Below are positions 1-5,081 of a stretch of DNA of 5,081 nt, piece after piece. Position 1 is the stretch's first letter; every line of letters begins with the position of its first letter. Source of the DNA: Streptococcus oralis. Lineage in GTDB: Bacteria; Bacillota; Bacilli; Lactobacillales; Streptococcaceae. Below the pieces are notes generated by a model. The model saw only the letters and a program-made list of their open reading frames with translations, was not told the origin of the DNA and did no database searches. The stretch spans positions 1 to 5,081 of the forward strand of contig CAJPKC010000118.1 in the NCBI GenBank assembly GCA_905370255.1. The letters run 5' to 3'. Both the position numbers and the translations under genes were made by a program.

Positions 1-889
1 TCTCGAATATTTCCTAGGTCAAATCCTGTATATTCTTCTTTTTGGAGTTGACCGTAGCATTCCTCAAGAACATCTTTTGAATTCGTTTAATATCCTCAAT
101 ATTTTCTTCCTCAATCGCTAAATTTAAGGAAGTGATAATATTTCCAAAATCATGACGAAAACCTTTTAATTCTAAATAGAGGCCTTGAATTTTATTCATA
201 TACTGCTCCATTTGGCGTTGTTCGAACCTCTTTTGCTTCAACTCCATTTTCTTTTCATAACGATCTCGAACCGTCTTCATTTGAACCATGGTTCCAATAA
301 AGATCAAGAAACAAATCGTTGCTACCATGCTACCAAAACTATTGAAATGAGCAATATCACTTATCCAATGAGAAGCATTCAATACTAAGGTTAAAATAAG
401 ATAACTAACAATCAATTGTTGGACAAATTTCTTAAAAACCCGCTCTTTAAAATAGAGAAGATTCACTTCGAGAATCGTTAATACCTTCATAATTAAAATA
501 AGTGAGATAATTCGAATAGTTAAAAAGTAATAATCAGAGTATTGGTTAATTATACTATCACCAAAAATAGAAGAAGTAATTACAGATAAAAATGTATCTG
601 TACTTTCAACTGCTAGATAAATGATGAATGAGTAAAGAACCGCTATCTGACGTTGAAGATTACAAATAAAATAGTAATAAAGATAAAGAAATAGTGGCCA
701 TAGACATAACATTAGATAATCAATATGTAAATCAAAGTAATCTAAGACCACTGTGATGACAAATACAGCAACAACACCAGATCCTAAAATCAATTGTTTA
801 CTATATTTATTAAGTTTTTGATCAATTTTTAAAAAAGATAAAAAAATTGTAAAAATAGTTAAAATTGAGAATAGGGTATTTAGAAACAT
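1..889 (-). pseudogene. comD: ComD competence histidine kinase, frameshifted and cut by the left window edge
   Basis: ComD is the membrane receptor kinase for the competence-stimulating peptide; it phosphorylates the response regulator ComE. The first 291 codons show a hydrophobic N-terminal half with about six membrane segments (residues 1-205), a charged helical linker (205-240) and the phospho-acceptor box FRHDF at 244-248 with His246, as in HPK10-family kinases. Intact ComD is about 440 residues. Here the open frame ends at a TAG (16-14) soon after the H-box region. Shifting frame just before position 32 gives YTGFDLGNIR, which matches the conserved YTYFDLNNIEDS region of pneumococcal ComD as I recall it. 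One extra base in the T run at 39-43 (A run in the gene) would restore it. The ATG at 889-887 shares one base with the comC stop. The SD is AGGAGG (901-896). Family assignment is firm; whether the frameshift is real or a sequencing error is open. Confidence 0.88.
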
Positions 890-1032
890 CAGTTTCCTCC
901 TCTACCAAAAATAAGCCCAATAAGATCAGAAAAATTATTTTTTTTGCGTTTATCCCCTCCACAGATTTGCTGCAATTCTTTTTCTGTAAGAACCTTAAAT
1001 TCTTTAGAAACTGTTGATGGATTGTTTTTCAT
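889..1032 (-). CDS. comC: ComC competence-stimulating peptide precursor
   Basis: This 47-residue gene encodes the competence pheromone precursor, exported and cut after a double glycine by the ComAB transporter in streptococci. Residues 1-26 form the leader, with the motif LTEKELQQICGG ending in Gly25-Gly26. This fits the LxxxELxxIxGG pattern of bacteriocin-type leaders; the Cys just before the glycines is less usual. The predicted mature peptide is residues 27-47: it starts DKRKKNNFSD, continues with a hydrophobic stretch LIGLIF and ends GRGGN. A negative or polar first residue with Arg at position 3 is common in streptococcal CSPs. I do not recognise this exact pheromone. The ATG at 1032 has SD AGGAG (1045-1041) eight bases upstream. 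The TGA at 891-889 overlaps the comD ATG, so comC and comD are translationally linked. A run of eight A's (945-938) lies in the mature-peptide codons. Confidence 0.93.
   Translation of the reverse strand: MKNNPSTVSKEFKVLTEKELQQICGGDKRKKNNFSDLIGLIFGRGGN
896..901 (-). promoter_or_regulatory. comD Shine-Dalgarno sequence inside the comC coding region
   Basis: AGGAGG on the minus strand lies six bases before the comD ATG (889). The same bases lie in comC codons for Arg-Gly-Gly near its end, so the comD ribosome-binding site and the pheromone C-terminus share sequence. This supports the comD start and implies coupled translation. Confidence 0.85.
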
Positions 1033-1078
1033 AAAAAAATCTCCTTATAATTTATTTGATTATTAAATTATTAAATTT

Positions 1079-1265: not shown

Positions 1266-1269
1266 ATTT

Positions 1270-1343
1270 TGATCCCAGCAGGATTCGAACCTGCGACCGT
1301 TCGCTTAGAAGGCGAATGCTCTATCCAGCTGAGCTATGAGACC
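1270..1343 (-). tRNA. tRNA-Arg (anticodon TCT)
   Basis: The minus strand folds into a full 74-base cloverleaf. The acceptor arms GGTCTCA and TGGGATC pair with two G-U pairs; the D arm is GCTC/GAGC, the anticodon stem TTCGC/GCGAA with loop CTTCTAA, and the T arm GCAGG-TTCGAAT-CCTGC. The discriminator base is A73. Anticodon TCT (1309-1307) reads AGA/AGG arginine codons. CCA is not encoded; the next bases are AAAA, so it must be added by the CCA-adding enzyme. A tRNA-Arg next to comC is the known arrangement in pneumococcus and relatives. Confidence 0.97.
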
Positions 1344-1355
1344 AGATTTCTTTTT

Positions 1356-4324: not shown

Positions 4325-5081
4325 GTGTCAAGAGAAGAAACATTCTGGAATCGTGTGATTGAATTAAGTAAAAAGACATTTAAAAAAGAAATCTTTGACT
4401 ATTTTGTCCTTACTTCAAGACTCATCAAAGTCGATCAACAAGAAGCCGTTATTTATTTAGATGCAGAAGTAAAGAAATTATTCTGGGAAGAGAATATGAC
4501 AAAGGTGATTCTGACTGCTGGTTTTGAAATTTATGCAGTAGAATTAACCATTTCTTATCAATTCAATCTTGAAGAAGAGGAAGAAGAAAAGGAGTTTATT
4601 CCCCTTTCAGAAACAACCAGAGCCTATGCAGTGAGCCATGCTCCAATAGTAGATTTGCCTCCTATCCAAACAGGATTAAGAAAGAAATACACCTTTGATA
4701 ATTTTGTAAGTGGAGACGGAAATCAATGGGCTTTGGCTGCCGCTTTAGCAGTTTCTGAAAACCTTGCTACCACTTATAATCCTTTATTTATCTATGGAGG
4801 ACCCGGTTTAGGTAAAACGCATTTGCTCAACGCAATTGGGAATCAGATTATGGAAAACTACCCAAATGCTCGAGTAAAATACATCCCAGCAGAATCCTTT
4901 ATCAATGAATTTTTAGAGCGTCTTCGCCTCAATGATATGGATACTTTTAAAAAAACCTATCGAAACTTGGATCTACTCTTAATTGATGATATTCAATCGC
5001 TTGGAGGAAAAAAGGTTACAACTCAAGAAGAGTTCTTTAATACCTTTAATGCTCTTTATGGGGATAATAAGCAGATTGTCC
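4325..5081 (+). CDS. dnaA: DnaA replication initiator, cut by the right window edge
   Basis: DnaA is the AAA+ ATPase that binds DnaA boxes at oriC, opens the duplex and brings in the replicative helicase. The first 252 codons are present, a little over half of the usual approximately 450. Domain I (1-80) starts MSREETFWNRVIEL. A short acidic linker, domain II (81-120), has a Glu run at 83-88. The AAA+ domain begins near KYTFDNFVSGDGN (121-133), with Walker A GGPGLGKT (158-165) and Walker B LLLIDD (217-222). The second half of the AAA+ domain and the DNA-binding domain lie beyond the edge. Start is the GTG at 4325, seven bases after SD AGGAGG (4312-4317). An ATG at 4306 is out of frame and before the SD. 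The frame is unbroken to the edge, and this gene would be missed by a search for complete ATG-to-stop frames. Confidence 0.97.
   Translation, partial: MSREETFWNRVIELSKKTFKKEIFDYFVLTSRLIKVDQQEAVIYLDAEVKKLFWEENMTKVILTAGFEIYAVELTISYQFNLEEEEEEKEFIPLSETTRAYAVSHAPIVDLPPIQTGLRKKYTFDNFVSGDGNQWALAAALAVSENLATTYNPLFIYGGPGLGKTHLLNAIGNQIMENYPNARVKYIPAESFINEFLERLRLNDMDTFKKTYRNLDLLLIDDIQSLGGKKVTTQEEFFNTFNALYGDNKQIV

Follow-up and report, generated by a model that had tools for sequence, protein, structure and literature searches.

A one-base deletion truncates comD near a contig end in an oral streptococcus: recent loss of pheromone sensing or assembly artefact

The 5,081-base stretch of DNA analysed here (the window) covers the comCD region close to oriC in an oral streptococcus that belongs to the S. 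xiaochunlingii / S. australis group. Its identity to Streptococcus xiaochunlingii E24 (L001) is 99.1% across 4890 positions, and to S. australis D40t1 (L002) it is 98.0%. It probably constitutes an entire contig, since its own ComD protein (P0001) is assigned to one of 5081 bases, and the contig end falls inside comD. The minus strand carries rlmH, a tRNA-Arg gene (1344..1269), comC (889..1032) and comD, and the plus strand carries htrA, a parB-like gene and the start of dnaA. The comC gene is intact and encodes a double-glycine pheromone precursor of 47 aa, which scores 22.1 bits with the Pfam ComC model, above the cut-off of 20.4, and 39.6 bits with the NCBIfam ComC model, under that model's cut-off of 50. 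A double-glycine pheromone gene of the ComC type immediately precedes comD, as expected for ComD, the HPK10 sensor kinase of the ComCDE system, and the comC stop codon overlaps the comD start codon (TGATG). No match to a phage collection was found for window positions 1-1060.

The region between tRNA-Arg and comC contains a 13-pair hairpin (1234-1265) with T tracts on both sides, which is terminator-like on either strand; the lengths of the flanking A/T runs vary among relatives. Transcription that continues from tRNA-Arg into comCDE is described for pneumococcus. Also upstream of comC, two copies of GCTATTTGG were read by eye at 1130-1160, about 21 bases apart, and this pair is spaced like a response-regulator binding site of the ComE type, for which it is a candidate only.

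The comD frame runs on the minus strand from 889 to 14 and stops at a TAG (16-14) after 291 codons. Codons 1-271 (77..889) are in frame and encode the membrane sensor region and the start of the kinase core, with 0/271 residue differences from each of L001 and L002, and 20 from a third relative (L003). An H-box stretch, FRHDFGNIITSL, lies at 125..160 of the minus strand; its core FRHDFGN (residues 244-250) contains the RHD motif typical of ComD, and the presumed phospho-acceptor is His246, at a computed position; the H-box consensus is the one given in PMC9638458. The remaining 20 codons (272-291) and the premature TAG (14..76, minus strand) are out-of-frame sequence. In an intact homologue (P0003) the ATPase domain (HATPase_c_5) occupies residues 332-434, and no match to this domain was found in the 291-residue product up to an E value of 0.1; the N-box, G-box and GHKL ATPase domain that characterize ComD are thus missing from it. 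These observations bear out the original prediction that comD ends just past its H-box and specifies a receptor devoid of its ATPase domain. A second frame near the left edge of the window had also been proposed to fit known ComD proteins, and it does: it reads EEYTGFDLGNIR, as do the in-frame products of all five named relatives (L001-L005).

Alignment with comD of these closest relatives had been suggested as a check, and it reveals the predicted frameshift at a different site. All five have one more base where the window has a four-A run in the sense strand (75-78, minus strand), and the five-T run at 39-43, where the lesion had been placed, is the same in 5/5. The frame is lost about 30 bases upstream of that run, and since the indel is at 75-78 rather than 39-43, the residues from the lesion to the stop are already out of frame. 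It had further been proposed that adding a base to the 39-43 run would join the two frames as NSKKEEYTGFDL; this segment is present in none of the five relatives, all of which read GQLQKEEYTGFDL. Locating a frameshift from a single sequence can therefore miss the true site by tens of bases. When the window is aligned pairwise with each of the five relatives (4890-4909 columns), the deletion at 75-78 is the only non-triplet coding gap; every other gap falls in an intergenic run or is a triplet within comC or comD of L005. The window has 109 coding homopolymer runs of at least 4 bases, 104 of which are within the part aligned with L001, and just one of these carries an indel relative to L001; the other 103, including a run of eight A's in htrA, carry none, which disfavours a homopolymer-prone sequencing method. 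A generally error-prone sequence was considered as well and is not supported, there being no other non-triplet coding indel relative to the five relatives.

In each of the five named relatives comD is open and is followed by a frame starting MNIVLLEDE, the position expected for comE, which the window does not reach because the contig ends inside comD. Among 284 Streptococcus genomes, 155 have a comD match at E <= 1e-60, and the eight closest of these are open throughout the match. The TAG at 16-14 is therefore not a trait of the lineage, and the possibility that homologues end naturally at this stop does not hold. One internal stop each was seen in two distant genomes (G201 and G156, 38% and 34% identity) among about 150 of the 155 matches listed. 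A search for the deletion allele with a 38-base pattern, tolerating two mismatches at most, gave 0/284 of the Streptococcus genomes, a set with one genome per species in which a rare allele would go undetected. A scan of viral_contigs returned neither the deletion allele nor the intact one and is uninformative, since the intact allele is absent there too.

Of the 125 ComD homologues, 120 were listed, and 109 of those listed extend to residue 430 of P0003 or further. The other 11 are shorter, and they include the window's own protein (P0001, in a cluster of two member sequences); some of them may have been cut by contig ends. Two homologues of 330 aa (P0002 and P0106), from two different sequence groups, have deviant tails near residue 318-323. 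The tail of P0002 is the neighbouring frame of L001, and it looks like another frameshifted comD on record in the S. xiaochunlingii / S. australis group, itself unverified. One relative, L005, is strongly diverged from the window in mature ComC and approximately the first 140 ComD residues (window 430-940) and near-identical to it on either side of this block, as if it were a pherotype mosaic in which recombination had exchanged the segment for pheromone and receptor.

Full-length ComD could in principle be produced by programmed -1 ribosomal frameshifting on C-AAA-AAG (44-38) or by transcript slippage, both of which had been raised in the original prediction, and the -1 direction and the presence of the heptamer in the shifted frame are as such a mechanism would require. 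However, the comD genes of 8/8 close relatives are open with no shift needed, and a dnaX-type slippery heptamer in the right phase is not conserved: CAAAAAG is in a different codon phase (CAA AAA GAA) in 7/8 of the intact relatives and missing in the eighth. The 50-80 nt after the heptamer in L001 fold no better than shuffled sequences (z from -0.89 to +0.83 over 8 segments, for pseudoknot-free folds), and the runs concerned are of just 4-5 bases, on which transcript slippage is implausible. We consider recoding extremely unlikely, and C-AAA-AAG is most probably an incidental A-rich coding stretch. A ComD that is naturally short in this lineage, and that either soaks up pheromone or acts as a dominant-negative receptor, would fit the unchanged sensor half, but the short form is present in 0/5 named close genomes and 0/8 closest matches, the allele is in none of the 284 genomes, and the last 20 residues are simply what the wrong frame encodes; this is extremely unlikely. 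A circulating 'signal-blind' strain, in which comC is retained and a CSP-binding, non-signalling receptor half soaks up the pheromone of neighbours as the cell stays out of competence, is also very unlikely.

Two readings carry real weight: a recent loss-of-function allele of comD that arose by the one-base deletion at 75-78, to which we assign a probability of roughly 0.55, and an assembly or sequencing artefact, in which the consensus took up a terminal branch that was erroneous or came from mixed strains, and the comD of the organism is intact. We give the artefact slightly less than even odds, such that a real recent loss and an error are about equally likely, and the original prediction was right to name a homopolymer error as an alternative, as it is a serious rival. 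The proximity of the lesion to the edge argues for the artefact: the contig ends 75 bases beyond it, a distance near common assembly word lengths, and contig ends are the least reliable part of assemblies. The absence of the allele from all 284 searchable genomes points the same way, as does the lack of any decay in the protein ahead of the lesion, which is the same as in L001 and L002. On the other side, the aligned sequence has no second coding indel of non-triplet length, despite the 103 other coding homopolymer runs, which supports a real allele. The frameshifted-looking P0002 in the same group, itself unverified, adds to that support, as do the open frames of the eight closest matches and the published losses in the same pathway. 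The P0001 cluster has a second member, which might be a similar fragment and counts against an artefact. The comparison shows the deletion relative to the relatives, the truncated frame and the intact comC; that the deletion exists in the cell, and that pheromone sensing and competence have been lost, is inferred at the level of confidence given above.

If recent loss is the correct reading, the absence of one base at 75-78 would shift the frame after codon 271 and bring in the stop after codon 291, giving a membrane sensor with an H-box and no N-box, G-box or ATPase domain. A histidine kinase that lacks its catalytic domain cannot autophosphorylate. The truncated ComD would accordingly be expected neither to autophosphorylate nor to activate ComE, and neither the CSP circuit nor competence would be switched on; PMC9638458 describes the H-, N- and G-boxes as essential. 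The original prediction that the strain makes pheromone and cannot sense it by this kinase is an inference. The pheromone gene is intact, but expression of both comCDE and sigX requires phosphorylated ComE, which induces comCDE (PMC6456647), so only basal comC expression and pheromone output would be expected. A real allele would be a further case of pheromone sensing lost in nature, here in an oral commensal, beside the published broken comD of one pneumococcus and the truncated sigX of many S. mitis strains. It would gain larger significance only if it recurred in a population, where one could ask whether non-responders exploit competent neighbours or escape them.

The window comD resembles ComD of the mitis-group ComCDE system, an HPK10 histidine kinase, in its comC-comD order, where the stop codon overlaps the start codon, in its FRHDFGN H-box, and in having 0/271 differences from two genomes up to the lesion, and differs in stopping after codon 291, short of the ATPase domain. 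The E. coli dnaX -1 frameshift site is an A-rich heptamer ending AAAAAG, and the window heptamer is likewise A-rich with the same ending; unlike at dnaX, the heptamer of intact relatives is out of slippery phase, the sequence after it in L001 gives no unusual pseudoknot-free fold, and the relatives' genes would need no shift to yield full-length protein. A literature search on premature stops in natural isolates gave no match. Losses elsewhere in the competence pathway have been reported, with about one in three of the S. mitis strains sequenced carrying a truncated sigX (PMC6456647). The closest parallel is S. pneumoniae 2245STDY5562278 (PMC9638458), in which comD is fragmented by a stop to give an N-terminal part of 270 aa, and for which the authors allow either a frameshift introduced by sequencing or a genuine change. 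According to the same paper, both comD parts are reported for that strain, whereas the window contig ends inside the gene, and the window, being from another species, represents an independent event; in each case comD is broken by a stop and its authenticity is equally in doubt. The window comD belongs to the ComD family as a broken copy, and a similarly broken comD has already been published from one pneumococcus.
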